Assembly: GCF_037975245.1 (NCBI RefSeq)
Contig: NC_092567.1
Location: 20,335,376-20,399,375 of the forward strand
Direction: 5' to 3'
Length of the DNA stretch: 64,000 nucleotides
Origin: Apostichopus japonicus
Taxonomy: Eukaryota > Echinodermata > Holothuroidea > Aspidochirotida > Stichopodidae
Part shown: positions 9,395-58,649 of the stretch, piece by piece
Layout: the number at the start of each line of letters is the position of its first letter
How positions within the stretch are numbered: position 1 is the stretch's first letter
Translations under genes and position numbers: made by a program
Notes under the pieces: generated by a model
What the model saw: the letters and a program-made list of their open reading frames with translations, nothing else
What the model was told of the DNA's origin: nothing
Databases searched by the model: none

Positions 9395-9655
9395 GCCACC
9401 GATGACTAGATCCTTTAAACGTTTTCATCTACCATGCAGCAGTGTTTGATTAGAGGTAAACTAGGAATGTTAATTTTTCAACACTAATTTCGGGTCATTT
9501 GTTTATATCCATGGCGTGCTCAGTTTTTTATATATTAACGGAGCACTACATATATTAATAAGTACTTCTCCCGCCATACCACCACCATCTGGTACTAAAG
9601 TAATTGTATCAATTTCACAGAGAAGAAATTTCTTTAAATATAGTATTGTGTAAGA

Positions 9656-9661
9656 AATAAA
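9656..9661 (+). terminator. Polyadenylation signal AATAAA, left Kazal gene
   Basis: AATAAA lies 262 bases after the stop codon, in a 3' region conserved in the right arm, where the mirrored hexamer is at 48793-48798. Confidence 0.6.
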
Positions 9662-9862
9662 GGATCAGTTTATAACAAGACATGTTTTTGTTATTTCTAT
9701 TTTAAATATGTCATTTATTAAATGTTAAGCAATCATTGCATCTAAATGTGGTTTTATAATTGGATGAGGCAAATAGGTCATACAGTCACATTCTCGCACC
9801 TATACATATTGTCCCATGAGAAGGGTACGTCGTGTAGTATTGGTTTCGATGATCATCGTAAC

Positions 9863-10168
9863 CAGGCGCGTAGCCAAGGGGGCGAAGGGGGCAGCCGCCC
9901 CCCCCCCCCCCACGGGAGCATATTTTATTTATGTAATTATGATATCGCTAGTAATTTCAAAAGAGGAAATGCTAAGATGCAACTTACAAGGCCTGGGAAG
10001 TGCCATTTCCAGCGATCTGGGAGGCATTTTCAGCCAAAATTTTCTAGTACGCTTCGCGCCAACCTATCGTGGCGCTACGCTCAGATAGTTTACAATGCCG
10101 TACCTACGGCTGTGATAGTTTGCCTACAGTTTCGCCCCTCCCTTGGCAAATTCCTCGCTACGCGCCTG
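9863..10168 (+). mobile_element. CAGGCGCGTAGC MITE downstream of the left Kazal gene
   Basis: TIR CAGGCGCGTAGC / GCTACGCGCCTG, with flanking ATCGTAAC and ATCGTTAC as an 8-bp target duplication with one mismatch, consistent with hAT-type insertion. A long C run follows the left TIR. Right counterpart: 48290-48591. Confidence 0.65.
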
Positions 10169-10209
10169 ATCGTTACCTCATGCAGGCAGATGAGTGAGGG
10201 CGTGCGCGT

Positions 10210-10870
10210 GACGCCTTGCTTGTAAACACGATTTCTCAAAGACTGAAGCGTGGACCATTCTCACATTTCGTGTCTAGGAGAACCGCCATATTGAGTAGAA
10301 GGAGCATATTGTTTGTTGAGTTCAAAGGTCAATTGGGGTGAACACGGATCAAATTGTAAAGACCTTGTAAACACGATTTCTTGAGGGAAAATTGGACCAA
10401 TCTCATATTTGGTAGGTAGTTCTGACACGTTTGAGTACAAAAATTCTGCAGTTGTTTTTGCTGGAGGTCAAAGATCATTTGGTCAAATTGTGGAAATCTT
10501 GTTATAACTTAGCATGTGCATGAATCATATTGCGAAGTTGTATTGTTTAACCTGGAGCCTAAAGGTCATCTGAGGTCACCAGATGTCAAACACTGAAAAT
10601 CGTGTAAAGACTATATCTCAACTTAGGAAAAATGGATTTTTTATATTATAATTGGCACGTGGAAGCGTTATATTGAATAGAATAAACTCAGTTGCTTTTG
10701 GTGGAGGTCAAAGGTCGTCTGGGTCTCCAGCGGTCAAAACTTTGAAAAATCTTGAAATATGATATCTCATGGTAGAAATCAGGACATTTATATTTACAAA
10801 AGCTATTTGTGGTGAACAAGCAGAAGTCTATTGCATTGAGGTCATCGAAACCTCAATGAATTTTTGCATT
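10210..10870 (+). repeat. Imperfect tandem repeat, ~150 bp, between the convergent genes
   Basis: Units share a start like TAAACACGATTTCT, a middle with GGAGGTCAAAGGTC and an end near CTTGTAAA. A related block is in P450 intron 8 (20540-20840; right 35935-36240). The right-arm copy of this one is at about 47600-48240. Confidence 0.55.
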
Positions 10871-11390
10871 CTGGTTTAGGGTGGAGGGGTGCTTGGTTGT
10901 AATTTTTCTGCACTGAGTAGGACTACCCTCATTAAAGATGACAATAATAAAAATCATAAAAAAAACGACAAATTACATCAATAACTCATTTTCCTTCGGA
11001 TCTCTTTATTTATTATTCTCTTTTACAAGATTTTGAAAAAAAAATATATTTCCTGGAAATGACTGATGTGACAATTGTTGTAAGACAAAAAAAAAAATCA
11101 TCAATTGTACAGTAAAATTAAATATGAGGTAAAAATGTTTCTGGAATGTTAACCAGTTTGAATTATAATTTATATAAATATCGTTTTTTCTACAAGAACG
11201 TTTGTTTTTAAAAATAAACACAATGACCAATCATTATTACTGTTTATCAGATCCAATTACACTGACCACCAAAACATATTACAAATTGAAAAAAACAACA
11301 TATTATTATAATATAAAATTCTCATACAGACTGAATGTCAGAAACTGTCTGTCAGAATCTGTCTATGTTGTGACTAAGACACATAGACAT

Positions 11391-11795
11391 AAACGCGATG
11401 GCTTATTAGACAAGCAAACCTTGGCTGAGACACAACTCACCTAAGACACATACACCTTGGCTAAGACATATACACCTTGGCTAAGACACAACTCACCTAA
11501 GACACATACACTTTGGCTGAGACAAAACTCACCTAAGACACATACACCTTGGCTAAGACATATACACCTTGGCTAAGACACAACTCACCTAAGACACATA
11601 CACTTTGGCTAAGACGCAACTTACCTAAGACACATACACCTTGGCTAAGACAAAACTCACCTAAGACACATACACCTTGACTAAGACATATACACCTTGG
11701 CTAAGACACAACTCACCTAAGACACATACTCCTTGGCTAAAACACAACTCACCTAAGACACATACTCCTTGGCTAAGACACATACACCCCTTGGT
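11391..11795 (+). repeat. VNTR of CACATACACCTTGGCTAAGA-type units (left)
   Basis: Alternating short units of CTAAGACACATACACCTTGG and CTAAGACACAACTCAC fill about 400 bases. The right-arm counterpart is about 720 bases long. Confidence 0.85.
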
Positions 11796-12075
11796 TGGAA
11801 CGTAAATAATGAGTGCTAATAATGTCTCAATATAATATCTATTGACCTATTCAAAATATTCAGCGTTTACAAATTCGTGATGCTCCTCTGAAGCCCAAAT
11901 TTGCAATGACGGTAGATATCTTCTCCTCTGTGCAGGTCTGTTGATGTTAACGTTTAAAGGACGACCGTTCTTTTAATTCTATATAATGACACCAGAATCA
12001 ACCTGCAGGTCCTGAGAGATCCGAGCTGTCATCGATAAAAGCGACTCTTTGCTCTTTTTGTCCAATCTGTATGAT

Positions 12076-15000: not shown

Positions 15001-18000
15001 GAGTGGCTGTGGATGCAACGCCTTCGCACCATTCAACCTCATGGGCTCAACATTAAAGAAGGATATGACTAACTTTTCTTCTGTCCCCCTCCCTCTACCC
15101 TTGTCCCCCCCCCCATCAAGCCTCTTCTCACAGCTCTCTTCCACCCCCTTTTTTCTTTCTTTTTTCTCCACACCTTTCTGTCTTTGTCCTTCTCCAGTTT
15201 ATTCCCTACCCTGTTCCTTTAATCCTCTCTCTGTCCCTCCACTGTTTATCTCCTACCCTGTTGCTTTCTTCTCTCCAACCCTTGTCTACTAATCCCCTTA
15301 CATCTATCTCATTGTGTTCACTGTGCTTCTGTCTGTGTTCTGTGCGTGTTTGTGTCCCTTCTGTTACTGTTACTTCCTCTGAAGAAGATCCTGCTAAGAT
15401 CGAAACGTCAGGCCAACTTACTTTTACACACAGTATGGGTACTAGTATAAATATCATGTTTCCATCCGTCTAATAGAGGGTAGAAACTGTTTGTACTGTC
15501 AGTAATATCGCTAGCTTTGAAGCAGCGCGGTATGCCAGTTTGACAGTATACAGTGGTAATAGCATTAGGAAATTGTTCCAACTGACTGAACAAATGAAAT
15601 CAAGTATATGTGATTTTTGGTCCAATTTAGCCAAACCACTTTTCTAACAGGCTAGGTCACATACCTTGTTCTTCTTTCTAAAAAGCCTTTCTAATGCAAA
15701 TTACCACTGAAATCATGAAACGTCATCGACCCAAAAACTGAAGAAGGAAGAAAACACAAAAAAAAAATGCAAACCTCAGTCTCGGAGCAGGTCTTGAGTT
15801 TGTATTCTTGAAGGACCCTTATGATACCAAACTTGATCTCCATCATGGCGAGCCGCATGCCGATGCAATTCCTGGGACCGTCACCAAACGGAAGCCAGGA
15901 CGCTGGGTGAATCTTGCCGCGGTTCTCCTTATTGAACCTGAGAAAGGGAGCATTTAAGGACACAAAGATGATGACTCTTTTTCTCTCTCTCCTTCACAAA
16001 CCTTCACTTTCTGGGGTTGTTTGTATAAAACACCACACTCCACTTTTTAGCTGATTCACTCAATTAGCTTAAGCAATGTTCTAACTTCTCTACCAGGTAG
16101 GCTATAAATCAATTTTAAATCGTGCAGTTTCCCCGAAACATCAGATTGTTGGGCATTTGGCTTGCCATAAATGTTAAGCAATAAAACAAGTTTGACTGAG
16201 CTGAACTCACCCCTATTCATATTAGGTGGCAGTGTAGGTATCAGACACACTGCTGCCACCCTCCCCCCCCCCCCCATCCCCTTCAGTGTTGATGCTAAAA
16301 CCAATTCCAATATTAGGTCATGTCAATTGAGAGATGAATGAATAGGTTACAGAGTCAGCATTTGCAAAACCCATCTCCAGGGCAGGAAAATACACATTCT
16401 AATCAAATGAAGGAAAAACAAACAAAAAACATGATTCAGTCTGATGATGGAGTCTTCACACTTGTGTGTGAGGAAATATTAAAGGGTGTGAAGACTCGCG
16501 CAAAAAGAAACGTCTAATGTCGGTAATTTGACCTAGTTTCGAATGAGGTGTAACAGAGGTGTTAAACACCACCATCGATCCCAGAAAACACACACACAGC
16601 TTGCTACCGTCGGTAATTAGACACTAGTGTACAGTCAGTACATACAGCTGCGGTCAATACCCACAGCACAGTATACAAACGATACAGCGATGGACATCTC
16701 AGGTCCAGCTAAAGATAACAATTAAGGTATCACGTTTCATTACTGTCTGCATTTTGTAGCGACACAAACAAAACGTCACTTGCAAGCAACAGCAAGTTAA
16801 CTTTTTCATATGGCCGCACGCGGTTTGGGACGAGTCTTCAATGCCTTTAAACTTTTGATATCTCCCAAATGGCATCAGATATGTGTGAGCCGTTTCGAGG
16901 GGACTTCTTCATTGCCGTTCTCTCTATCACACACAACCCAGTGGTGATTGTTTCGAGTTTTGTGCCTTCATTAATAACAGAATTTGGCTCAAGTTGGTCC
17001 AGTTTTCGGCAATAGAGGGTCGGTAATAGATAAGAACTACCGAACACAAAAACTGGTTGTGAAGAGCTATTATTTCCTGATAGGATGTTTAAAAGTGAAA
17101 AGGGCCTGATGTTTCGATCAGAGGCTGAATGACCAAGTTACAGTAACAGAAGGGACAAATACACACAGAGAAATACAGACAGATTAATGAGCACGGTGAA
17201 CACAATGAGATAGATGTAAGGGGATTAGTGGACAAGGGATGGAGAGAAGAAAGAAAAACCAACAGGGGAAGAGGAGAGGTAGGAGATAAACTGTAGAGGG
17301 ACAAAGAGAGGCTTAAGGGAAGGGGGTAGGGAGTAAACTAGAGAAGGACAAAGACAGAAAAGTGGAGAGAAAAAAAAGAGTTAAATGTTGGCAGAACCTT
17401 TCTGGTTGGAATTCTTCTGGATCTTCCCATATTTCTGGATCGTGGTGAATGGCGTAAACAGGAACGAAGATCCGGAATCCCTTGGGGATCAGGAGATCCT
17501 TGATGACGATATCACTTTTGTCATTGATGCGATCCAACCTGCCAATTTTTTGTGTAAAACATATTAATAAAATTAATAAAAACTTACGGAACTGTTTTCG
17601 ATTCGCTCATTCATACTTTTGGCAAAAACACTGCCATGACATGCACAAAAATGTTTTAAAAAAAAATTTTTTTTTTTTAAAAATTACGTATTAGGAAAAA
17701 AGCTTGTCACACTTAGCATCAATAACAGAACAAAACAGGTACAGACAAATGAAACATAGTGTATCAAAGACAAATAAAAACAGAAAACTTATTAAGTTGC
17801 TGAAAATCTTATACAAGCAACTTAAGAAGCCCCCATGACTAGGCTATTTAATTGTCAAAACCCTCTACTTTTCAAATTTCAACCATCCGAAGAAACTTCG
17901 CAATTTCTTTTTTATATCAAACAAATGTCGATCCGGTTTTGTGTTATTGCGTTTACAGCCTGAGAGTGGGAAGATGGCCACACCTTGACAACATACCTTC

Positions 18001-19555
18001 ATATTTTGACACTTGTTGTACTTGACAAATTGTACCTTTCGATTCTGTTACTCAGTCTGAATGCAGAAATTGTTGGGTATAATGGCTAGCTATAGTGAAC
18101 ACATGACATTTAAGTTTCTACAGCAACTTTTCTCAATGGTCATGATCAGACAATGCAAGAAGGCATATCCCCCCCCCCTAATCCCCCCCTCCATGGGAAG
18201 TAACAGAACTGTTAAAAGCAAAAGGGACACCCCGACTGAGCAATCCAATTCTTACTCTGGGACGGAAACCTCGTCTGATTAGAGGCAGACACGGCGTAAC
18301 AAAGACTTACACTGAGATGGGAGGAAACAGCCGAAGTGATTCTCGAACAAAGCAATCCAGGTATTCCATCTGACTAAGAACCTTGTAGGTTACATCCTCT
18401 CTTCTCGGGGCAAACTTCTTCACTTCTTCAAACAGTTTGTCCTGTTTCTCCGGGTGGGTGGCCAGTAGGTATGAAGTGAGGCACAAGGCTGTGTTGGTAG
18501 TCTCGTAGCCAGCCAAAAAAAATACATAAGCCTGAAGAACAGAATTTTGACGAAGAGTCTTTCCTTAGAGCAGGGAGAGACGGGCGATGTTATTCGTGCA
18601 GACAGAGAGACAATTGATGGACTAATTCATACAGTGTCAGTCATAGGCATAGGAGGCAGGGGGTGGGGAGGGGAGGGGGCTAGGGTGCTGCAGCCCCCCA
18701 ACCAAAACTTTTTGTGAAAATTCGGGCAATATGATGAGAACTTTTCGGCACCTACTGAAAGAAAAATAATTTGCAATGTGTTTTTCAATGGTTAAAATGA
18801 TATTATTATGATCATCATTATTGTAACGACTTCCCCAATAATTGTAACCAATATGGAAGGGTATATAAATAACACAGGAAATTATTGTATGTTATTTGCA
18901 TGCGATGAAATAACCAATGCATGCCTATATGATATGCAAATTAAGAAGTTGAATGCGAGCGGAGCGTGCAAAAAATGTTGGTTATATTTTTCGGGCAAGT
19001 CGTTACAGCCCCCCCCCCCCCCCCAAAATCAGATAAGGCTCCTACGCCTATGGTGTCAGTAGTGTAACAGAACCTTTAACTGTTATTTTTGAAAATCAAA
19101 GCCAAAAACTAGTGTACATTAGCAAGCACAGCTGGTCATCATTATTAAGCAATCATATGTTTCTTTGTTATGCTAGGCAGTCTTTTCTTTGCTCATATAC
19201 TCGAAATAGGGAGCCATTATGTTTATAAGGGTTCTTTGTGGCCTCAGTTTACGATCCCAAATAAAAGAAGAACATATTAAAGTCTATAGAAAGACTACTT
19301 ATTGAGAGGTGTTCCTATTCTTTTGTTGTTTTTGTTCTAACAATAGATTAAAGCCGCATATATATATATATATATATATATCACATAGAATGGTGGTCAA
19401 TATTCACAAAGAGTGCTCTATGCCAAGGCAACCGTAAACACACACGCCTGAAGCCGAGATAGCCTATGTTGTTCAGTTGCCTGATGACCGGTGCGCGAGA
19501 CGTACCCGTGAAACTCCGAGTAGCAGTATGATGATAGTTTAGTTAAGTATATTAT

Positions 19556-25500: not shown

Positions 25501-28500
25501 ATGTTTCTTTCCTCAAATGAATACAAATGAAACAAGAGCCCAAGGGCACTGTGGTTCCTTGCTTGGGGTATATGACAATACACATAATATTATCAAGCAA
25601 GATTGGGCTCAAAATAATCCAAGTAATTGTGGTCCTACATGTTCCCATAAAGTAACCAACACTATAGCCAACACTTTTGTGATCACAAAATGTGATCAGA
25701 TTTTTTATCAAAAGGCACTTTTGAGATCTAAATATGGCGTCGCAAATGTAAGAAATATAAGAGACCTACAAGTGAGACGTAAATATAGCATCAAAACTAT
25801 AAAAATTCAAACAATTTTTCTTTGCCCATTTTCTCCCCCGAAAATACTAGTTTTTTAACGTTAATTGACCTTTGGTGACCTCGGATCACATGACCGTTAA
25901 GTTTGAAAATATTCCCCTTTACCATTAGCAACTTGTCCAAAAATATCAACTGTGTCACACCTTGGCACTGGGGGTTATTGCAATAAATGTCTGAAAATTA
26001 ACTTTCACCTTGTATAACTTTGCACACGAAGGTCACACGGGTGTCAACCCATTGACATTTTTGATTGGAAGGTACCTTTGATATCCAAATCTAGCATCAA
26101 AACCAGAAATTTTCTTTTTTGTTCGTTTCCTCCCTAAATAAGCACATTTTTTCTAATGTGACCTTTGACCTTTTGACCTTGGTTTCAGATGTAGTTTTAT
26201 CCCCTGATTACAAAAAACAAAACGTAAAGTCTGTACAGCCATCCTAACTCCGACCGAAAAACTTTGACCCCATATAACTTCGCACAAAAAGGTCACACGG
26301 GGTCAACCTGATGACATTTAGGATCAGAAGGTACCTTTGACATCTGAAAATAGCATCAAAACTGTAAAAATCCACAAAACACTAAAAAGGTCACCAGAGG
26401 TCAAATTGAGGTCAAGGGTCACCCAGATGCGGGTCGACAATTGGATTACATTGAAGCAACTCCCAACCCTAACGGACAATTTGTTCTCAAGTTATCGCAA
26501 AAAATACTAGTTTTTTATCATTAATTGACCTTTGGTGACCTCGGATCACATGACCGTTAAGTTTGAAAATATTCCCCTATACCATTTGCAACTTGTCTCA
26601 AAATATCAACTGTGTAACACCTTGGCACTGGGAGTTATTACACTAACTGTCTGAAAATTAACTTTGACCTCATATAACTTAACATACAAAGGTCACCTTG
26701 GGTCAATTTATTGACATTTTTGATTGATGAGACCTAAATTAGAGCATCAAACTATAAAAATTCAAACATGTTTTTCTTTGCCCATTTTCTACCCCCAAAA
26801 TACTAGTTTTTTGACATTAATTGACCTTTGGTGACCTCGGATCACATGACCGGTAAGTTTGAAAATATTCCCCTATACCATTTGCAACTTGTCCAAAAAT
26901 ATCAACCATATCACACCTTGGAACTGGGAGTTGTTGCATTAAATGTCTGAAAATTAACTTTGACCTCGTATAACTTCGCACACGAAGGTCACACGGGTGT
27001 CAACCAATTGACATATTTGATCGGAAGGTACCTTTGATATCCAAATCTAGCATCAAAACCAAACATTTTCTTTTTTGCTCGTTTCCTCCCAAAATAAGCA
27101 CATTTTTTCTAATGTGACCTTTGACCTTTTGACCTTGGTTTCAGATGTAGTTTAATCTCCTGATTCCAAAAATCAAAACGAAAAGTCTGTACAACCATCC
27201 TAACTCCGACCGAAAAACTTTGACCCCATATAACTTCGCACATAAAGGTCACACGGGGTCAACCTATTGACATTTATGATCAGAAGGTACCTTTGACATC
27301 TGAAAATAGCATCGAAACTGTAAAAATCCCAAAAACACGAAAAGGTCACCAGAGGTCAAATTGAGGTCAAGGGTCACCCAGATGCGGGTCGACAATTGGA
27401 TTACATTGAGGCAACTCCCAACCCTAACAGACATTTCGTTCTCAAGTTATTGCAAAAATACTAGTTTTTTATCATTAATTGACCTTTGGTGACCTCGGAT
27501 CACATGACCGTTAAGTTTGAAAATGCTCCCCTAACCAGTTCACAACTTGTCCCAAAATATCAATCTTGTCGCACATTGGCACTGGGAGTTATTGCAGTTT
27601 TAATATTTTCGGTTTTTGGACCATAACTGACCTTTGGTGACCTTTGTGGGCACCAGAAACAATAGGGCACACCCTCTCCATATGGCGAATCTATAGTCCA
27701 AGTTTGGCCTCAATCCAACATTCCCTTATTGAGATAGAGCGTACCCAAGCAAGTGTCACAGACACACACACACACACACATACATACATACACACACACG
27801 CCAACCTGACTGCATAGGTTCCTTTTGCTAAAGCAAGGAACCAAAAAGGAAAGGTGTTTTTCAGTTCAATTACCATGACGACGTCGCTGCCTTGGCTGTT
27901 GCTAGATACATTCCTTAAATTCCACCAAGTTTTGAAAAACTGTATCTCCATGATAAAAATGCTCTTTAGGATGCGGTTTTGACCTAAGGCTTTATTGGAA
28001 TTCCCATCAATTTCTTTTTCTTGTAACTGTGAACTAACGGAATATCCCATTACGGACTACTTCTTACCATTAAAGGCATTGAAGACTCGCCCTACACCGC
28101 GTGCCGCAATCTGACAAAGTCAACTTTCCGTTGCTTGCAAGTGAAGTTTTTTTTGTGTCGCTACAAATTGCAGACAGTAATGAAACGTGATACCTTGTTA
28201 TCTTTAGCTGGACCTGAGATGTCCATCGCTGTATCGTTTGTACACTGTGCTGTGGGTATTGACCGCAGCTGTATGTACTGACTGTACACTAACTGTCTAA
28301 TAATTAACCGATGGTAGCAAGCTGTGTGTGTATTTTCTGGGATCCATGGTGGTGTTTAACACTTCTGTTACACCTCATTCGAAACTAGGTCAGATTACCG
28401 GCATTAGACATTTCTTTTGCGCGAGTCTTCACACCCTTTAAGACCCTTCATGTGCTGCATTACTCACAGATCGGTTTGACAGAGACGAAAATCTGCTGAT

Positions 28501-30911: not shown

Positions 30912-31340
30912 TCTGATAATATACTGTTAAACTTCACAAGTACTGAGTGTGAAAACCGTTGGTCTTCTTTGGCAAAACAATAGAATCTTTCTTTTCCAGT
31001 CGTTGAGCACTTCATTACTTATTCTCTTCGGCTTCACTAATATTGGTAATGTTTACATCGATATTGCGCAATAGCTGTTTAAAACTGTGTGGTATTTATG
31101 GAACGCCGAAAGTTTCAAGTGTACGATGATTAGGCATACGTATTCGTATATACGGCTCTGGGCTTACGTAAAAACTTACGAGTATGGTGTAAAAGCATAC
31201 GATGGTGATGTAAAGTTAAACGTTCATGATGTAAAATATACCTTCATGGTGAAAAAAAGGTGATGAACTCTAATTATGCATTCGTTATGTCAACAAAATT
31301 CACGCTTATGATGTACAAAGGTATAAGATGGTAAGATGGG

Positions 31341-31769
31341 TTGGATGGATGGATGGATGGATGGATGGATGGATGGATGGATGGATGGATGGATGGATGG
31401 ATGGATGGATGGATGGATGGATGGATGGATGGATGGATGGATGGATGGATGGATGGATGGATGGATGGATGGATGGATGGATGGATGGATGGATGGATGG
31501 ATGGATGGATGGATGGATGGATGGATGGATGGATGGATGGATGGATGGATGGATGGATGGATGGATGGATGGATGGATGGATGGATGGATGGATGGATGG
31601 ATGGATGGATGGATGGATGGATGGATGGATGGATGGATGGATGGATGGATGGATGGATGGATGGATGGATGGATGGATGGATGGATGGATGGATGGATGG
31701 ATGGATGGATGGATGGATGGATGGATGGATGGATGGATGGATGGATGGATGGATGGATGGATGGATGGA
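31341..31769 (+). repeat. (GGAT)n array of about 107 units
   Basis: An almost perfect tetranucleotide array of about 428 bases, about 430 bases upstream of the P450 start codon. It gives open frames on both strands (Met-Asp-Gly-Trp and Ile-His-Pro-Ser repeats) that are artefacts of the four-base period. Confidence 0.95.
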
Positions 31770-32961
31770 CAAGCTATTAGTGAACAACTTAGAGAATAAA
31801 ATAAAGTAAGCAGAACCAGAACTGTAACAGAAGCATTTCAATGTGTTCCAATATCCAAATTCTAGCGAATCTTCTGACACGTTTATAGCCTACATGGATA
31901 AAATGTCACCCACATACAAATCGGGTGTAATTTCAGTTTCGTTAGATTGTCTTTAAGCACATTTTCTCATCATTTTTCTTGTATTAGAATAGACTTTGGC
32001 AAATCATATGTGAAATAAAGCATAAATGGTATTTTGTGTGAAATAGACTAATATGAGTGAAATGAAATCAGGGATATGTTAATGCATGGGCTATCTGTCG
32101 CTTTTCTTTTTTCTTTTCACGTCAACTTTTTGTTAAGTTGTTTTGACGATAAAGTACCTTTCATCTCCTTCTCTAACATACATACAATTTGTGCGTAGAA
32201 ACGCAGAAAATAGTATTTGATGTGAATATTCAGTCCTAAATTTTCACTCCAAGAGCTAATGAATAACCAGTAGATTTTCACCCGAATATATATAATACGT
32301 TGTACTGTAAATACCAAATAGACCATACACAGTGAATTGACACTCTAAATACCGAAGAAACTCTACCAGGATGAGGTTTCTAGGATATTGACTCTAATTA
32401 GAGTTGAATTCACTCTGATCAGAGGATCGAACTCTAGGTCAATTTACCAATTTCCAATCTGTTAATTATACAATTTGCTCCAATCCATCCTGATCGTGTC
32501 GAAAGCTTGATAATTTATTGTGAATGATCTCAATGATCGTAAATATTTGGTCTATGGTAAAATGTGTGCACGCGGCGGACAGCAGGGGAAGTAATGAGTA
32601 ATATTCCCTTCCTGCACACGCCCACCCCCGCCTCTTCTCCCCTCCATTCAAAAATGGGCTCCACCGTCCCTGCTTTGGCCGATGTAATTCGGAATATTCC
32701 TTTTTGAAATAATTGTGTCAGACAAAATGTCCTGTTTTATATTTTCCATTTTCATTTCTTTAAGTCTATCACTACTGGTGTGATTTTGGTGGGCTAACTT
32801 AAGCTGATCGTTTAACCAGGTGACTTTATATCATTCTCTTTTAACAATTTATATGTTGATTTAACTGAATTTACTTATTTTGTGAATCACTGTTGCCAGT
32901 GATAGTTGATGTTTCCTAGGGCATTTTTCGTTAACTTCGTCCTTTATCTATTTATTGTAAG

Positions 32962-37944: not shown

Positions 37945-39187
37945 ACTGACACTGTATGAATTAGTCCATCAATTGTCTCTCTGTCTGCACCAATAACATC
38001 GCCCGTCTCTCCCTGCTCTAAGGAAAGACTCTTCGTCAAAATTCTGTTCTGCAGGCTTATGTATTTTTTTATGGCTGGCTACGAGACTACCAACACAGCC
38101 TTGTGCCTCACTTCATACCTTCTGGCCACCCACCCCGAGAAACAGGACAAACTGTTTGAAGAAGTGAAGAAGTTTGCCCCGAGAAGAGAGGATGTAAGCT
38201 ACAAGGTTCTTAGTCAGATGGAATACCTGGATTGCTTTGTTCGAGAATCGCTTCGGCTGTTTCCTCCCATCTCAGTGTAAGTCTTTGTAACATAGTCTGC
38301 CTCTAATCAGATGAGGTTTTCGTCCCAGAGTAACAATTGGATTGCTCAGTCGGGGTGTCCCTTTTGCTTTTAACAGTTCTGTTACTTCCCATGGAGGGGG
38401 GGGGGTTAGGGGGATTATGCCTTCTTGCATGGTCTGATCATGACCATGAGAAAAGTTGCTGTAAAAACTTAAATATCATGTGTTTACTAGCTAGCCATTA
38501 TACCCAACAATTTCTGTATTCAGACTGAGTAACAAAAAAAAGGTACAGTTTGTCAAGTACTACAAGTGTCAAAACCTGAAGGTATCTGTAAAGGTGTGGC
38601 CATCTTCCCACTCTCAGGCTGTAAACGCAATAACACAAAACCGGATCGATATTTGTTTGATATAAAAAAAAAATTGCGAAGTTTCTTCGGATGGTTGAAA
38701 TTTGAAAAGTAGAGGGTTTTGACAATTAAATAGCCTAGTCATGGGGGCTTCTTAAGTTGCTTGTATAAGATTTTCAGCAACTTAATAAGTTTTCTGTTTT
38801 TATTTGTCTTTGATACACTATGTTTCCTTTGTCTGTACCTGTTTTGTTCTGTTATTAATGCTAAGTTTGACAAGCTTTTTTCCTAATAAGTTATTTTTTT
38901 TTTTTTTTTATTATTATTTTTTTTTTTTAAACATTTTTGTGCATGTCATGGCAGTGTTATTGCCAAAAGTATGAATGAACGAATCGAAAACAGTTCCGTA
39001 AGTTTTTATTAATTTTATTAATATTTTTACACACAAAAATTGGCAGGTTGGATCGCATCAATGACAAAAGTGATATCGTCATCAAGAATCTCCTGATCCC
39101 CAAGGGATTCCGGATCTTGGTTCCTATTTACGCCATTCACCACGATCCAGAAATATGGGAGGATCCGGAAGAATTCCAACCAGAAAG

Positions 39188-39500
39188 GTTCTGCCAACAT
39201 CTTACCCTTTTTTCCCTCCACATTTCTGTCTTTGTCCATCTCTAGTTTCCTCACTGCCCACCTTCCCTTAATCCTCTCTTTGTCCCTCTACAGTTTATCT
39301 CCTACCTCCCCTCTTACCCCTGTTGGTTTCTTTCCTCTCTCCATCCCTTGTCTACCAATCCTCTTACAAACTTTCTCTTTTGTGTTCACCCTGCTAATTA
39401 ACCTGTCTGTATTTCTCTGTGTGTATTTGTCCCTCCTGTTACTGTAACTTGGTCATTCAGCCTCTGAAGAAGATCCTGCAATGATCGAAACGTCAGGCCC
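39188..39500 (+). mobile_element. Penelope-like 3'-UTR relic, right arm, core intact
   Basis: Counterpart of 17099-17395. The segment at 39464-39494 keeps CTGAAGA, GATC...GATC and GAAACGTC. Confidence 0.5.
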
Positions 39501-46369: not shown

Positions 46370-47085
46370 TGGATGTGTCTTAGACAAAGTGGATGTGACC
46401 TACGTCAAGGTGTAGGTGATTTAGTCAAGGCGTACGTGTCTTAGCCAAGGGGTGTATGTGTCTTAGCCAGGTGTATGTGTATTAACCAAGGTGTATGTGT
46501 CTTAGCCAAGGTGTATGTGTTTTAGGTGAGTTGTGTCTTAACCAACGGGTGTAGGTGTCTTAGCCAAGGTGTATGTGTGTTAACCAAGGTGTATGTGTCT
46601 TAGCCAAGGTGTATGTGTCTTAGGTGAGTTGTGTCTTAACCAAGGGGTGTATGTGTCTTAGCCAAGGTGTATGTGTGTTAACCTAGGTGTATGTGTCTTA
46701 GGTGAGTTGTGTCTTAGTCAGGGTGTATGTGTCTTAGGTGAGTTGTGTCTTAGCCAAGGTGTATGTGTCTTAGCCAAGAAGTATATGTCTTAGGTGGGTT
46801 GTGTCTTAGCCAAGGTGTATGTGTCTTAGGTGAGTTGTGTCTTAGCCAAGGTGTATGTGTCTTAGCCAAGAAGTATATGTCTTAGGTGAGTTGTGTTTTA
46901 GCAAAGGTGTATGTGTCTTAGGAGATTTGTGTCTTAGCCAAGGTGTATATGTCTTAGCCAAGGTGTATGTGTCTTAGGTGAGTTGTGTCTTAGCCAAGGT
47001 GTATGTGTCTTAGCCAAGGAGTATGTGTCTTAGGTGAGTTGTGTCTCAGCCAAGATGTGCGTGTCTAATAAGCAATCATGTTTAT
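46370..47085 (-). repeat. VNTR, expanded right-arm counterpart
   Basis: Same units in reverse complement (GTGTCTTAGCCAAGGTGTAT), about 720 bases versus about 400 on the left. Confidence 0.85.
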
Positions 47086-49047: not shown

Positions 49048-52000
49048 CTAGTCATCGGTGGCTTGAGATATTGGATGACAATTTATCGTTTTGCAAGCGA
49101 TTATTGCGCGACTAGGGCCAAGTGGGAGATAGAAATATGGTGAAGGGGATTCCCCCTTGGCGAACTCCAGGCATGCGTACTGAAGACTAACACCAGGGCA
49201 ACCTAACCCATCTACATCTAACACACCATGCAGACCAGTGAAAAGGAGATTTTGGCCTCGGATGAGAGGTATGGCCTTATCCTCTTCCGAAAGTACATCA
49301 GGTTGATACTGCGCACGCGTCATGACACCACTGGTAGCATTGGAGAGGAATAGACCGATCCGCCAGAGATCGGTACCATATATGGTATCTGTGTCGTTAA
49401 ATGGCTCGATGTTCACTTTAAACGCCACTTCGTAACCTTTACCTTCAAGCACCCTCTCATTAGTCACATTCCATTTTAAGCACCGCAGCCAGGCCGTCGG
49501 TGGTGGAGGTAGTGGTTCTCGATCTGCAGAGTAGAGACGACGGCAAAGAGATTTTTTTTTTTTTTTTAAAGACGGTTTTACCCACTGAAATTCATCAGTC
49601 AGATTTTCTGTCAGATGAAGCAATTAACTTCATTAACAATTTCCGCAAGTCATTCCGACCACGTCCTTTGGGGGGATGTGGGGGGGGGGTGAGGTCAGCG
49701 AGTGCAAAACGTAACACCTCTGCCCTCGTCAACCATCAAAAATCAGGCAAATGTCAAGTTGCTCACATTTGTTTCCTTCCCGGTGAATATCCTCTCACCT
49801 CCCCCTCCGCCAGTCTCCCAACAACCCTTCCTCCACCCCCTCGTTGTTGGAGTACGTTTTAAACTCTAACAATTGCCTCAATGTTGAAAATGTATTGTAA
49901 AGGTCAACTAGTACACTACTGTAGGTAAATGATTGTCTGCAGGGGGTTGGAGCCCGGGGGTACTGGTGGCACGTGCCCCCCTCCCCACTACCCACTTTTT
50001 TTTCCAAAATAGCAAATGTGCCCTACTGGCAAATAAAATGTGCCCCTTTGATGAAGAACTGTCTTTTGGATATCTTAAGCCTTTGTTAATTTTAATATTT
50101 TAATTTAATTATTTACTTTGAGTCTGTACATGCTTACTTTTAAAATGGCATCCCATATCTTTTTGTAGCACGGTTAACAATAAACAATCTCAATAAATAA
50201 AAAAAAAATCAATGTTGCAGCACACCATAAATAGTATTGATAGCATACTAACACACCATATATATATTTAAGTGTTACGGCCGGTCATGTGTATCGGTTT
50301 ATAGCATAACGAGTGATGGTTGTGGAATGAGAAAGTGCCCCTCTGATGTTGTGCCCCCCCCCCTACTTTTTGGAAGCTTCCTATACCCAATGATTGTCTG
50401 TGACCGTTTTCGGTGTTACTATAGTAGCATATCTGACCGGAAAAGGAAAGTTGCTGGTATACTCACTGATACATCGTATAATGCGGCAGGTCACTACTTT
50501 TCTCTTGTTTTCATTATTGGATATTTCGAAATTTGGCACAGAGTCAGCAGACTTCGCGATTGTTACACACAGATACCGATAATCACCGCAACCGATGGCG
50601 CTGAGATCAAACTGTGTCGTAATCAGCGGGAAAACAAGAGTACGTCCTGGGATAATGTCGGGTGAATGTAAGGCGTCGGACTCGTCTAAGATCTGAGGAT
50701 TGAAGCCGATCTTTTCGTTTTCGTGGTCACCATAGTAATCTCGGCTACCGTAAATGGCAATCCGCCATAAATTCGTTCCTCCTATGATCTCTTCGCTGTT
50801 CTCTTGTACATCCACCGATATATTGAGGCGTATACCAATTGGTTCGTTGAGTCGGAACCTTTCGAGCATCATGACGTCCCATCGGACTTGTTGAAAAGAT
50901 AGGTGAACCTTATCTGAAACTGTGTAAAGTAAAAAGGAAAGGATCATATTTATATACAGACCATATATATTCTTATAGGCCTGTATTATAATAGTTGAGT
51001 AGTTCATTGGTGACAAAGATTCAGTGCTGCGGCATGCACTCGAGACCGGTCGAGTCCTGGCACACGAGACCAAGTTATATTTGCATTTGAGACCAAGATG
51101 GCTAATCTGCGTCTCGGGGACGGAGGTGACGGGACCCGAGACTCGAATCCGGTCCCTACACTCGACGTCCTGGCACACCGTAAGACCAAGACCAAGACCA
51201 AGCCATTTTGTATTCAAGCCCAAGATGACCAACTTGTGGCCGGGAAGCGAACAAGGCCGAAGCAATAATTCTGAGATATTATCCAATTGTTATGCATAGA
51301 AGGAAATTTAAAAAGGAACATGTGATAAAAAATTCCGACTTCACCAATTTCAAACTACATCCAGCTAGAGCAGTTGCGTAGCTAGAGGTTTTTGCGCCCG
51401 GGTGCAAGAGTAGAATATTGCGCCCGCCCCCACTACTGAAAGAAAAATAAATTGCGCGCGATAATTTTTGGTTATAATTTTCGGGCAAGTCGTTACATCC
51501 TCCCCCCCTTCCCCTAAATCAAATTGTGCTCCTACGCCTATGTTATTTCCACCTTTCGAAATCTAATGCCTTGGAACTGTATACTAAAATACCCGAAATT
51601 TCCGTAACATGTAGTCATTACAGAATACAGAACAAAATAAAAAGAAAAGAGAAAACGGTCGAAATGGACTGAAAAGAAATCACAATCTACAAATTTGCTA
51701 ATAAAATGAACTACATTCAGTTCAGATTCTTATTAGTAACTGGAAAATATTCATGCCTGACGACGTACATCAATTTCATATTTTTTCTAAAAAGCGCTTA
51801 TTTTTTTTACTCTCATTCTCCCATTTTAGCGCCCCCTTAACCCGGCGCCCGGTGCAAGTGCCTTCCCTTGACCCCCCTAGCTACGCCACTGAGTTTGAGT
51901 GGTTACAATATATAACTATGGACATATATGATTGCTGAATAGTCCCTATACACAGATTACTATTCATATACAAAAGGTGTGGCCTGTCATGGCGCAATTC

Positions 52001-55000
52001 AATTGTCACTTAGCTGTGGCTGGATAAAAGCTGTGTCACTCGTTTCATCGAGCAACTCTCACGTTTTACGAATATTTGGGGCCACACCTGTATACATTGT
52101 ACGTGGACGGGAGTGTTCCGGGCGCAAACTTCGTCTGTGTTGCATATTATAGTCAGGGAGTGGCAGCTCCCTGGTATGTAGTTACCTATGAATGAAATTA
52201 CGCTTTACTTTTATCCGAATTCCAAGTTCCGCGACACACACCACCCCCTCTCCCACCCCTTCCACTGCCTCCATTTTAAGATAGGTAGTAATATGTACAG
52301 AATCCTAACTCAAAACACATTTGAACTTTAAAGACATGCATTTGAAGACTCGCCCCAAACCGCGTGCGGCCATCTGAAAAAAAAGTTAACTTTCTGTTGC
52401 TTGCAAGTGACGTTTTGTTCGTGTCGCTACAAAATGCAGACAGTAATGAACGTGATACCTTTGTTAGCTTTAGCTGGACCTGAGATGTCCATCGCTGTAT
52501 CGTTTATACACCGTGCTGTGGGTATTGACCGAAGCTGTTTGTACTGACTGTACACTAGTGTATAATTAACAACGATAGCAAGCTGTGTGTGTATTTTCTA
52601 GGATCGATGGTGGTGTCTAACACTTCTGTTACACCTCATTCGAAACTAGGTCAGATTACCGGCATTAGACGTTTCTTTTTGCGCGAGTCTTCACACCCTT
52701 TAAAGAAGAAAGCCCGGACAGACTTACCAGGTGGACATTCTCCCAAGGTTTCAAATCTGACCGCGACACGTTGACAGCGTGCTGCCTTTGTTAACTCACA
52801 AAAGCTGTCGTACTGAACACTGTTGTTCCCACAAACGACGCCACCAAGAATCTCAGGCGGAGGACACGACTCGAAACAAGTTGGCGGCAAATCTGGGAAT
52901 GAAGAAAGGGCGGGAGTTTTCGTTCTTACAATTTATTGTCAGCAGTATTTCATCATTTGGTACTTTTGAAATACAACTTTTCTTCGACAGGGACGTAGCC
53001 AGGGGGGAACAGGGGGAGCGACTGCTCCCCTCTTTCAGTGTCGAAAAAATGTTAAAAATTGTTGTTTTTTGAGCAAGATATTTCGTCAGTGCCCTTTTGA
53101 TCTTGAATACTCGTCAGCTCCGTTAACTCGATTATTATCGTAGTAACATTCAGGCCTACTGATTCAGCAACTTACTACGTTTGGCAGATGCATATAGCTA
53201 AATTTAACCTATAGCCTATTACAAGCCTACAGTTGACCACTGCGCAATAAAATACATATTGCCTACCTAACCGCACTCGATGGAGTGTTACGAACCGTAT
53301 GCACAACGACGTCGACAACGTTCGTTCTCATCCTTTCTATGATTCGTCCTAAGTTGTTGAACGAACAGCATGTTATGAAGCTAAGCTAGCAATCGTACGT
53401 GATACGCACTTCCTATTAATAATGATTACACTGCTAATACACTGCGATAACGAAGTCCAGATATTGGACAATAAACCAAAATCATCCTACTGGGAATTTT
53501 TTTTAAAAGAGCACAATGTTTGTCTTTCTGATCATATAATAAGTAAAAGAACATTTAAAAGAATTCAAACAGGAAACAAAATCTGCTGATAATATGATAT
53601 CATATGAAAATGATGAAACTGGCAAAACATTGCACCAGATCGCATCTAAGGACCTTCAATTTTTCAAAAATATCTCATGGACACCCCCTCCCTTTAGACC
53701 CCTCCCCCATATCAATTACAAAATGTGCTCCCCTTTCAAATTCCTGGCTACGTCGCTGCTTTTTCGATACGTGTAATAATGCCCATCATCATAATAGTAT
53801 CGGTGTCTGGTCACTGTCAAAGGTCAGGAGGTAACTCTAGACACGCTAGGGCGTGTGTGCAGATACCATATATACTTACCACTCTCGGTTTCCATGGTAA
53901 TGTTTGGCCGTAGACATTCGCGTCTTCGGCAGGCGACGATACTGCCGAACACGATGCCAGCTCTCAGTTCGAAATTGACCGGTGAATCCCTGTCCCTTGC
54001 AAGTTCGACGCAGAAGAAGGCGACAGCGCCACATCCGATCTGGCTTATATCAAACCGAGCCTGTAGATTTTTGAGTTTCAACATATTCCCTTTCTCCGCT
54101 CTCTTAGAGGCTTGCTTTGTCGTCAAGATTTGGTTGACGTATCCATATTTATCGCCATAACCATCCTCCCATTCACTGCCGAAAATGCCAACTTTCCATA
54201 AATTCTTACCGCTTACCGAATCGCTACCTTTTGCTAATTCCGCGAAAACGTTGAGAGTGATGGCGCTCTTTGCATCTAGTTTTGCTTTGGGGACTTTCAC
54301 ATCCCATTCGAAAGAATCCAGAGTTACAACAGTTCCTGTGGAATCGACAAAATATAGGCCCTATGATTATTAGTAAGAACAAAATGGACAGTGTCACCGT
54401 TTTGAACGATTCGCTTTTTTCAAAAATTTTCTCTTGAGTTATGTGTCCCTGCAGGGGAACCCAAGTTCCGGACAACGTTTTTTTTTTTTGCGAACGATGT
54501 TATTAATTTACACAGACACAAACCCACGTAGGCTATATCATCTTTGTTTAGCTTGTATGATTGAAAACTTTGATGATAAACAACTCCCACCAAAATAGCT
54601 ATAGCAAAATCATCATGACTCCGATTGAGAGAACCAAAAGTTAAATGTCGCGTCTGGCGGCAGATATCATTTCAATAATAAATGATAGGATATATAGTGA
54701 GACTAGTATCGGATAACCTTTTACGTTCTCTCTTTAATTTCTTTCTATTTTTTGTTCACTATTTTCAAGGCAGATTGTTAACATATTGCTGAGGCTTAAA
54801 TCATCACCATCCCATCACTTTAGTCATGGGGTTAATAGCCCCAAATATGTTAGATTTCAAATTTCAAGCATTTTTGCAAAACCCATCTCGATAGTACAGA
54901 AAATAAACTTTGTACTAAGTAATGAAGAAAACATTACCTGAATTGAGCACGCGTGGCGTGATGAAGTCATAATTGGACTTGATCAAGTAACGACATATTG

Positions 55001-57960
55001 TGCACGATGAAATTGAAATTGTGTACGGGATATCTCACAATGGTATAGAAGCATTCAATTATATGTTTGGGGGCGTTGTCCATAACCGCACTTATATCTC
55101 TATCACAAAGAAAAATGATGATGGATTTGTTTGTGTCTTCTAAAACAACTTTTGGTTGCTATCAAGTTAAAACCATGAAACAACATTTAATACATGCCAT
55201 GAACCTTTTTCCTGATTTAATCTATTTTACTATTTACATACTTCTTAATTTGTTTTGGACTATATGCGTTTTGGGCTTATTTTTTTTTAGTATCGTTCAG
55301 TTTAGTACGGGTGTTTTTTTTATATTGTTGCTTTTGGCTTTTACATTTTTTGCCTTATTGGTTCTATATATTTAATATTTTGGTTTTTTGTTACTATTTG
55401 TTTTCAGGTTTTACATTTTGTAAAGCGCTTTGAGCAGCTTTGCTGATTATGCGCTATATAAAAATTACTTATTATTTTCTCCATTTTTGTAAATGTGCAA
55501 ACCGACTGTATCAATAAGGATTTTAGCGTGCCGTGCCGGCGGCGACACGCACCATGGCATATAACAGTGTGAAGCTATACCAAGAAAACATATCTTACCG
55601 ACGTCACATGGTCCATCCTTTACTTTGACCAAATCGGGTGTATTTCGACATCCAGCAAATCCCTCGAGTTCACATTCGTTGTTGTAAGAGTTCCCGTCTG
55701 AACCGCATACGGGTGCATAGCGCGCCGTACAATCAACGAAGCAGTCTTGCGCTGAAAGGAAACAACAGTTCAGGTCAAAGGTCAAATATAAATCGTTTTC
55801 TCTTTAACGAGCAGATGAAGAATGATATGACGTAAGGTATAAATATGAATCCAAATGTCTCTACTTCAGGAAGCAAGAAAAAAAATCGATTAAAACAAAT
55901 ATGGGGGAAAAAAAGGGATTTTTGCCGAAAAGTATATAGGAAATATTAAGTTATGGTTTTTCAAGAGCAATGTTTCTTCAATTAGACGGAAGTTTGTCAT
56001 TGAAGCAGAAAAACCTGTTAATATTATTACAGCTTGGCGGGAATTTCTGGATTAATTATTCCTGTTTTGTTTCTTACTTTGAAAAAAAAATACTAGCACT
56101 CGCGTGATAAAAATTATTGTCAGGTAAATACCTCTTCCAATTTTCTACAAAAAGAATTTATGAAGGAAATAGGTCTACATATTTGTAGAAGACCGCAACA
56201 GTTAGAACCTTTTTACGCCCATGGGGTCAAATTCCCTCTTATCTATCTAGACCTGGGTTTCCCTAACTATATCCCCCGACCCCCCACCCCCTCCCCCACA
56301 CGAACCCCCTGTTGATGTCAGAGTTGTCCACGAACCCCCAACTTTTCGAGACACGATCTGAGTCATTATTATACTATAATAAGCATAACAGTGCTCCGTA
56401 AAAGATCAAGTTCATAGTGTAATATTGAACTGGTATATCATGTTTAAACAGACTAGCGATTGCATGTTGTCACTCAACAACAATTTTCAAGCATGAATTT
56501 ATGCTAACTTTGCTTTGTGTCGGGCAAAATGGAGGTCATCTGGAATTTCCAAAATAATAATAATTACTTTGGCCAACCTTTCAGTTACTTTCTCAGCTCT
56601 TTATCGTCATGACGTACTGTCATGGGTACACCAACTTCACCTAAGGAATGCGGCCTGTGTCTGTTTCATAATTCAGTTTCTTACATGCACGGTACGGTAC
56701 TACTATGACAACATATGCTTATGGAACGCGAAAAGAGTTTGTCGATAGGTACGACTTTTGTACATTACTAAATTATATCGATATATCAGATTTTAGTTCA
56801 ACAAAAAGTACTACGGTACTCTAGTTTAGACTTCCAGAAACGTCGCACGAACCCCTGGGATGGATTCACGCACCCCCTAGGGGTTCATGCACCCCAGTTA
56901 AGGAACCCTATGATCAATATAGACTATTAAAGATATTCACCTGTCCTTTCGTTCCTCTCAATCACATTTTCGAAATATTCACAGTTGAAATTGTCAGAGG
57001 CTGTAACCTAACTGAACTTGAGGCTACAATGGTGTGACGTCATAATGTTGCAGAATTGACAGCAATATTACAGATAAAATGGAAATTGAATGCAATTTGA
57101 CTAGGATGTTTAGAATATGTTCTTGCTCTCATTATCAAAACAAAATTCAGTACTATTCTTTCAACAGCTCGTGAAATTCGTTAGTTATAATTTGATGACC
57201 ATTTTTCAGTGTTTCATATTAGATATGTCACCCCTATATATAACTAGTATTCTGACAATGACAATTTTATCACTACACCTTATACGCTTAAAACAGGTGC
57301 ACACTGTCAACCTTTAACACAACTGTCTGAACACGTGGTTATACACTATCGAGTATGCATGCGGATTGTATAGTCCCTATATAAAGCATGCACAGAACTA
57401 AACTCCATTCATTTTTGTGACTTAAAATTCGCCCTTTGACCTCACATACACAGACAAAAAAATGCTCGACTCACTTCCCCAACTCCCCTTTGCACCCACC
57501 CACCCAACCACCCATCCCATCCAACCCCTTTCCCATCTCTGCCGTAAGAACTGACGAGTTTATCCAGCTTTTGGCCAGGCTCTGACGGAGTGGATTGGAT
57601 TTCTGATACTCCAAGTGTAAGCACAGAAACGCACACGCAAACATGTACGCACGCACTCTATCGAACACGCAAAATGCCCGGATTTTGTAGAAGGTGGTTA
57701 TTACTGTATTTAAATAGATATAAAGCCAGGCAGAATGCGGGGGTAAAATGTGAAACCTTTCAGAAACTTTAAATACCACACAAAGTTATATGCGGAACAA
57801 CCGAGTTGATTTGTCGAAGCATATATGATAGCACTGATAAAACTATAGATATGAAAAAGGTTCCTTTTTATTTAATTGTATATTTACCTATTTCACGGAT
57901 GACAGCTGTAACGGCCGTCGAAGTTAACAGAATAACAGCGAGAACACATAGATACTTCAT
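49048..57960 (-). CDS. Secreted Kazal-domain protein with three copies of the module (right copy)
   Basis: Minus-strand exons in order: 57888-57960, 55599-55751, 53880-54335, 52728-52892, 50467-50919, 49048-49523. They join into 591 codons plus stop, all introns phase 1. Layout: signal peptide, Kazal 1, module A, Kazal 2, module C, module D; module B is missing. Kazal 1 differs from the left copy by one residue (Arg71 to Gly). Module C is two codons longer than on the left. The C terminus is six residues longer (QATDD after the shared HPIS, plus upstream length change), because the left copy has TAA where this one has CAA. The 771-bp MITE at 52988-53758 and the TTAA MITE at 52332-52699 lie in its introns, the latter about 30 bases from the exon-4 donor. 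The frame is intact, so it looks functional; expression cannot be judged. Confidence 0.85.
51371..51890 (-). mobile_element. G-rich TIR MITE, right-arm counterpart
   Basis: Mirror of 6572-7089. Ends CAGTTGCGTAGCTAG and CTAGCTACGCCACTG are near-perfect inverted repeats. Confidence 0.6.
52332..52699 (+). mobile_element. TTAA-target MITE, right arm only, next to a Kazal exon
   Basis: Same family, with TTAA at 52328-52331 and 52700-52703. It lies about 30 bases from the exon-4 splice donor of the right Kazal gene; the donor itself is intact. The left arm lacks it, although the flanks there also differ by a short indel, so the empty site is not perfectly clean. Confidence 0.75.
52988..53758 (+). 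mobile_element. 771-bp TIR MITE, right arm only
   Basis: TIR CAGGGACGTAGCCAGG / CCTGGCTACGTCGCTG. It lies in the intron between modules A and Kazal 2 of the right Kazal gene. The left arm (about 4771) lacks it. The flanks look like a degenerate target duplication (TTCTTCGA / TTTTTCGA). Confidence 0.65.
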
Positions 57961-58298: not shown

Positions 58299-58640
58299 AG
58301 GCATTGAAGTCTCGCCCAAACCGCGTGCCGCGCTCTGAAAGGGTAAACTTACCGTTTTCTTCTTGTTGCTACAAAATGCAGACAGTAATGAAACGTGATA
58401 CCTTGTTATCTTTTATCTATACCTGAGATGTCCATCGCTGCTATGCACACTGTGTTGTGGGTATTGACCGCAGCTGTATGTATTGACTGTACACTAGTGT
58501 CTAATTACCGACGGTAGCAAGCTGGGTGTGTGTATTTTCTGGGATCGATGGCGGTGTCTAACACTTCTGTTACACCTCTTTCGAAACTAGGTCAGATTAC
58601 CGGCATGAGACGTTTCTTTGCGCGCGAGTCTTCACACCCT
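58299..58640 (+). mobile_element. TTAA-target MITE at the outer end of the right arm
   Basis: Same family (342 bp), bounded by TTAA at 58295-58298 and 58641-58644. Only its first part aligns with the left arm (112-183), so the arm boundary lies within this element. Confidence 0.75.
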
Positions 58641-58649
58641 TTAAGTTCC

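Follow-up and report, generated by a model that had tools for sequence, protein, structure and literature searches.

The window analysed here, a stretch of 64 kb without a single N, is an imperfect inverted repeat. A blastn comparison of its two halves pairs a left arm (109-25369, forward strand) in reverse with a right arm (58374-33083, minus strand). The arms, of about 25 kb each, pair in pieces, with private stretches and many small indels in between. Gaps aside, most pieces diverge by 3-5%, and those toward the inner end by as much as 9%. A spacer of 7.7 kb separates them, and this hosts a long, largely perfect array of an 8-bp unit at approximately 31227-31780. Other repeats include a tandem array with 16-, 20- and 36-bp spacing (approximately 11400-11796 and 46400-47066), which is longer in the right arm, and a dispersed repeat of about 290-370 bp (52338-52703, 16479-16844, 28076-28441 and 58353-58644), the copies of which are about 89-92% alike in the pairs given by blastn. 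Scans of the window for Rfam families and tRNAs returned no match.

Each arm carries a Kazal-type gene with an open frame, encoding 765 amino acids in eight exons on the left and 632 amino acids in seven exons on the right. The gene models were derived from the sequence, using open frames and splice borders. All introns of both copies have gt and ag ends and interrupt a codon between its first and second bases. The left gene (forward strand) starts with an exon that hosts the start codon and, judged by eye, a signal-peptide-like N terminus (541-613). This is followed by Kazal domain 1 (2584-2736; Pfam Kazal_2 E=2.7e-8, Kazal_1 E=2.8e-8), a domain we call module A, which tblastn relates to the later modules B, C and D (3941-4396), Kazal domain 2 (4865-5029; Kazal_2 E=5.8e-8), module B (5768-6184; tblastn), a small cysteine-containing segment (6277-6399), module C (7538-7984) and finally module D with the stop codon (8931-9394). 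The small exon is putatively coding, being open in phase with ag/gt borders.

The right gene, on the minus strand, has the same plan without module B. Its signal-peptide-like first exon (57888-57960) is joined to Kazal domain 1 (55599-55751; tblastn identity to the left copy 98%), module A (53880-54335; 95%), Kazal domain 2 (52728-52892; 98%), the small cysteine-containing segment (52063-52185; found by tblastn and through the joined frame), module C (50467-50919; 84%, with two 3-nt insertions relative to the left) and module D (49048-49523; 77%, with one 3-nt deletion). An AATAAA lies 3' of each copy, at 9656 (left) and 48798 (right).

On the Kazal_2 profile the left domains score 34.2 bits (Kazal 1) and 33.2 bits (Kazal 2) against a cut-off of 22.8. 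With the right domains 98% identical to these, both copies count as Kazal-type domain proteins by the curated Pfam cut-off. The second and third cysteines are spaced by seven residues in Kazal 1, which we take to be the canonical spacing, and by ten in Kazal 2. The small cysteine-containing exon has no Pfam match and does not differ at all between the copies. It is part of a region (6230-7530) where the arms differ at only 17 of 1256 columns, less than elsewhere; recent arm-to-arm conversion or allelic recombination could have produced this.

The modules form a family of their own. Modules A, B and C share 22-26% identity with D, and the seven module sequences of both copies have 15 invariant columns, four cysteines among them. 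None of the seven has a significant Pfam match, the best being E=0.034 (DUF4470, one member). Searched by sequence against the PDB, the module profile reached at best E=1.1 and module C alone matched nothing up to E=10. Relatives were also sought in two collections not meant for animals, where 13 pattern matches in IMG/VR and 17 in GTDB genomes gave no confirmed member. Among the literature matches listed for Kazal domains with diversifying or positive selection, gamete recognition and sea urchin, no title or opening of an abstract concerned the module. At column 20 of the module alignment A1, the second residue past the invariant tryptophan, modules A, C and D all have valine in the right copy (M, I and L, respectively, in the left); this shared change may be due to chance.

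Module B was found in the left gene only. In the right arm, tblastn with this module picks up nothing but its relatives A, C and D (28-32% identity), and about 1.1 kb of left sequence, judged by eye, is absent between the right Kazal 2 and the small exon (52728-52185). Loss by deletion in the right copy would be the simplest reading. The right frame is kept without module B because the internal exons share the same phase. The right intron at this site contains a copy of the dispersed repeat. The genes also differ elsewhere: the right stop codon is five codons later than the left, and right module D contains an additional cysteine. One of its N-glycosylation motifs is shifted, to residue 42 from residue 49 on the left, and two others are kept. 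As module B has no right-arm partner, it enters none of the comparisons below.

A cytochrome P450 gene lies further inside each arm. On the left, tblastn locates three exons on the minus strand (15772-18522): e1 at 18522-18310, e2 at 17537-17394 and e3 at 15939-15772, the last with a Pfam p450 match of E=4.7e-19 and presumably carrying the haem-binding motif. On the right there are two on the forward strand (38038-39191), e1 at 38038-38277 and e2 at 39048-39191 (E=2.6e-19 and 7.5e-16). A tblastn search for a partner of e3 in the right arm found none, and the right-arm P450 seems to lack this exon. The spliced Kazal and P450 genes suggest that the DNA comes from an animal.

Two such absences raise the possibility that the right copy is decaying, and that its amino-acid changes reflect relaxed constraint. 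However, the joined frames of both copies are without internal stop codons or frameshifts. Three indels, each of 3 nt, fall in the six exons counted (1719 bp, without Kazal 2 and B). In noncoding DNA there are 79 indels in 7551 bp, of which 13 are a multiple of three. Without constraint about 18 indels would be expected in the six exons (p=2e-5). Exon indels are thus few and in frame, which makes decay unlikely. A further argument comes from the rates, as decay raises nonsynonymous change to the neutral rate and not over it. In module D, 41 of 346 nonsynonymous sites differ, compared with 73 of 1616 columns in nearby noncoding DNA, which is 2.6 times as many (p=1.4e-6). On this evidence we regard decay of one copy as highly improbable.

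A codon alignment of the two copies bears out the counts that an earlier, sequence-only reading had made by eye. For module D, left 8933-9391 was aligned with right 49521-49066. Where that reading had around 30 replacements and about two silent changes, the alignment gives 34 replacement and three silent codons out of 152; one of the silent codons adjoins the 3-nt gap in a proline run. In module C the counts are 22 and three of 148. The cluster of replacements near the N terminus that had been described there is also seen: the opening 50 columns of the alignment contain 11 of the 22 and are free of silent changes. Module A has seven replacements and no silent change in 151 codons and Kazal 1 has one of each in 50, both as claimed. 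Kazal 2 likewise has one of each in 54 codons, the replaced residue being located between the second and third cysteines. The signal exon has three replacements and one silent change in 24 codons, and the small exon none of either in 40. As a control from the neighbouring gene, P450 e1 and e2 have five replacement and five silent codons among 119 (71 in e1, 48 in e2), a lower ratio of replacements to silent codons than random change gives, albeit on a small number.

The sequence-only reading had further stated that replacements vastly exceed silent changes. The raw 11:1 ratio in D overstates the effect, because neutral change alone gives about 3:1: when as many random changes are placed in exon D, the mean outcome is 31.8 replacement and 10.6 silent codons. 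The informative quantity is therefore the corrected ratio, in which an excess remains. Under random neutral change, three or fewer silent codons in D would occur with p=0.003; the matching tests give p=0.069 for C and p=0.073 for A. Changes at codon positions one, two and three number 25, 11 and 11 in D, and 12, 9 and 9 in C. Third positions are thus not the most changed.

We estimated dN/dS in two ways: by Nei-Gojobori counting with a one-sided Fisher test, and by an own-written pairwise codon maximum likelihood (ML) method with a likelihood-ratio test. All estimates are from one sequence pair, the left versus the right copy, and the p-values are uncorrected for several tests. With only two sequences, branch and site models and the polarisation of changes do not apply. 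For module D, dN/dS is 2.20 by counting (dN 0.128, dS 0.058; p=0.035) and 3.33 by ML (p=0.012). Module C alone is borderline, with 2.22 by counting (p=0.16) and 2.89 by ML (p=0.055). For C and D together the values are 2.18 (p=0.015) and 3.08 (p=0.002), and adding A gives 2.39 (p=0.005) and 3.49 (p=0.0004). For A alone the counting ratio is undefined, there being no silent change. Pooling all seven shared exons by counting still results in 1.95 (Fisher p=0.017). The ratio at or below one in C and D that would have spoken against selection is therefore not what either method returns.

The remaining exons behave differently. Pooled, the signal exon, the two Kazal exons and the small exon have six nonsynonymous and three silent differences. 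Counting puts their dN/dS at 0.59 and ML puts it at 0.87, neither of which differs from one.

The noncoding DNA of the arms, i.e. introns and flanks, provides an independent neutral reference. We used the intervals 200-535, 620-2575, 2742-3925, 6405-7525, 7992-8915 and 9420-11240, and left out columns within five of a gap. The region 4400-6230 was excluded from this rate and from the indel count, because the global alignment is meaningless there. Overall, 223 of 6391 columns differ (3.5%), ranging from 1.5% to 5.4% across intervals; the unmasked rates of the same intervals are 1.5-6.2%. At silent sites the divergence does not differ from this rate, being 1.0 times as high in C (p=0.78) and 1.6 times as high in D (p=0.29). 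At nonsynonymous sites it is raised by a factor of 2.2 in C (p=6e-4) and of 3.4 in D (p=1e-10). The nonsynonymous sites of C are also above nearby noncoding DNA (26 of 346 versus 57 of 1831, p=3e-4), and D remains higher when compared with the intron before it, which is the most diverged interval (p=3e-4). In module A the nonsynonymous rate is 0.73 times the intron rate (p=0.45), i.e. not above it, and for this reason A is only suggestive.

Total change per exon can be compared with noncoding windows of the arms. Exon D has 46 changes in 430 columns, and 1696 overlapping noncoding windows reach at most 31. Exon C, at 24 changes per 430 columns, is inside the noncoding range (90th percentile 24, maximum 31). 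Left out of this comparison are the tandem repeat at 11380-11800, the piece with Kazal 2, the interval 16176-16369 and all pieces past 22056.

Such a concentration of change in D might be a mutational artefact, with a hypermutable stretch or multi-base mutations inflating the number of replacements. In D, changes sit next to each other somewhat more often (8 adjacent pairs among 46 changes) than they do in noncoding DNA (25 among 223). Twelve codons have two or three changes, eight of them in D and four in C, and codons of this kind can originate in single multi-base mutations. That said, the silent sites of D do not significantly outpace noncoding DNA. When the multiply changed codons are removed, dN/dS in D rises to 5.1 (p=0.0056) and C and D together give 3.3 (p=0.004), although C alone falls to 2.3 (p=0.16); for A the test gives p=0.076. 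An artefact of mutation is, in our judgement, a very unlikely source of the excess.

Gene conversion offers another route to clustered change. If C and D of one copy had been overwritten from a distant third paralogue, the divergence would be older and not a product of selection, and the dense cluster at the start of C, with half of the module's replacements, would fit a converted tract. However, an older donor should also have added silent changes, and silent divergence does not differ from the intron level. A donor that was itself under selection is conceivable. We also looked at the changed sites for conversion between the modules of the same gene and saw none: the right residues do not resemble the other modules more closely than the left ones do (11 versus 12 of 34 in D, 7 versus 6 of 22 in C), which argues against the gene's own modules as the only donors. 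Overall we give conversion from a third paralogue little credence.

The positions of the changes within the module show no strong pattern. Avoidance of the most conserved module columns is weak and not significant in D (5 of 34 columns versus 27 of 103, p=0.24) and in C (2 of 34 versus 18 of 103, p=0.16). Modules D and C share eight changed columns where 5.0 are expected (p=0.086; shift control p=0.147), or 16 versus 12.4 with one column of slack (p=0.12; shift 0.028). For D and A the numbers are four versus 1.7 (p=0.052; shift 0.035) and for C and A two versus 1.05 (p=0.29). Since these shared hot columns are weak, we refrain from proposing a variable face common to the modules.

Taken together, selection for amino-acid change is well supported in module D and fairly supported in C, and only suggested in A. 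For C and D combined, dN/dS is estimated above one with dS at the neutral rate, in this one sequence pair. The diversifying selection that the sequence-only reading had proposed is thus favoured in part. In C and D, dN is above dS as well as above the intron rate, and dS does not differ from the latter, but the Kazal domains are not the target.

That reading had also spoken of two genes. An open gene is indeed present in each arm, but the arms could be either a true inverted duplication or the two haplotypes of one locus in a very heterozygous animal, which the assembler joined head to head. With haplotypes, the replacements would be allelic diversity at one polymorphic protein. The arms are collinear over about 25 kb, with the divergence, small indels and private stretches described above, and 3-5% is a level at which haplotypes differ in some marine invertebrates. 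The patchiness of the divergence, e.g. 17 of 1256 columns at 6230-7530 versus 41 of 753 in the C-D intron, is also something that recombining alleles could show. On the other hand, no gap of Ns marks a join in the window, and an old, true inverted duplication with gene conversion between its arms could look alike. Furthermore, the finding of module B and one P450 exon in the left arm only goes beyond what is expected of ordinary alleles, though such differences occur. We consider joined haplotypes a serious possibility, with chances only somewhat short of even. The selection result stands for duplicates and haplotypes alike, with a different meaning in each case, and the haplotype reading is compatible with the explanation that we prefer.

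Our preferred explanation is that each arm encodes an intact, secreted mosaic protein, in which positive selection has acted on module D, on C and perhaps on A; we think this is probably correct. Both genes are apparently intact, and diversifying selection would have repeatedly altered the amino acids of D and C, and perhaps of A. The process would have preserved the Kazal domains, the splice borders and the reading frame, together with the four cysteines of the modules. Binding to a changing partner is the usual cause of selection for amino-acid change. The modules may therefore be putative binding domains that face such a partner, with the Kazal and linker parts serving as a scaffold. Candidate partners include a product of a microbe or parasite, the surface of a mate or neighbour, and a proteinase. 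Expression of the genes and secretion of their products are presumed in this model, as are the binding role and the nature of the partner.

A bolder version of this model is that the locus encodes an undescribed, highly variable invertebrate recognition protein. This would combine a new four-cysteine module of about 140 residues with Kazal domains, and diversification would act on the modules and not on the inhibitors. Its mirror-image locus would differ by a whole module and possibly serve polymorphic recognition of mates, self or pathogens. We put this forward tentatively, as a speculation that is rather unlikely in its full form.

The protein resembles known systems in different ways. It is like other Kazal-domain proteins (PF00050/PF07648) in having two exons over the profile cut-off and, by eye, a signal-peptide-like N terminus. 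In proteins of the ovomucoid type the hypervariable part is the Kazal reactive loop, whereas here a single residue differs per Kazal domain and the unrelated modules in between change instead. There is also a likeness by pattern only to bindin, lysin/VERL, SpTransformer and Hydractinia Alr, which are positively selected recognition proteins of marine invertebrates: these share dN/dS above one in particular domains, and open frames.

Animal proteins that join Kazal to other domains are also represented in echinoderm skeletal proteomes, which according to an excerpt of a published study include agrin/Kazal and Sushi/Kazal proteins (PMC5460417). The same excerpt terms matrix proteins often rapidly evolving (PMC5460417). 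It names the agrin/Kazal and Sushi/Kazal proteins and not the present module (PMC5460417); the likeness is one of description.

Domains that outpace neutral DNA mark the places where proteins meet changing partners. In the case described here the signal comes with internal controls, namely the introns, the silent sites, the Kazal exons and two exons from the neighbouring P450 gene. It is located in a module without a significant Pfam match. The present case is one sequence pair, and the locus behind it may be single and polymorphic. Should the signal recur in orthologues and in population data, this gene would be a candidate recognition protein for experimental work.
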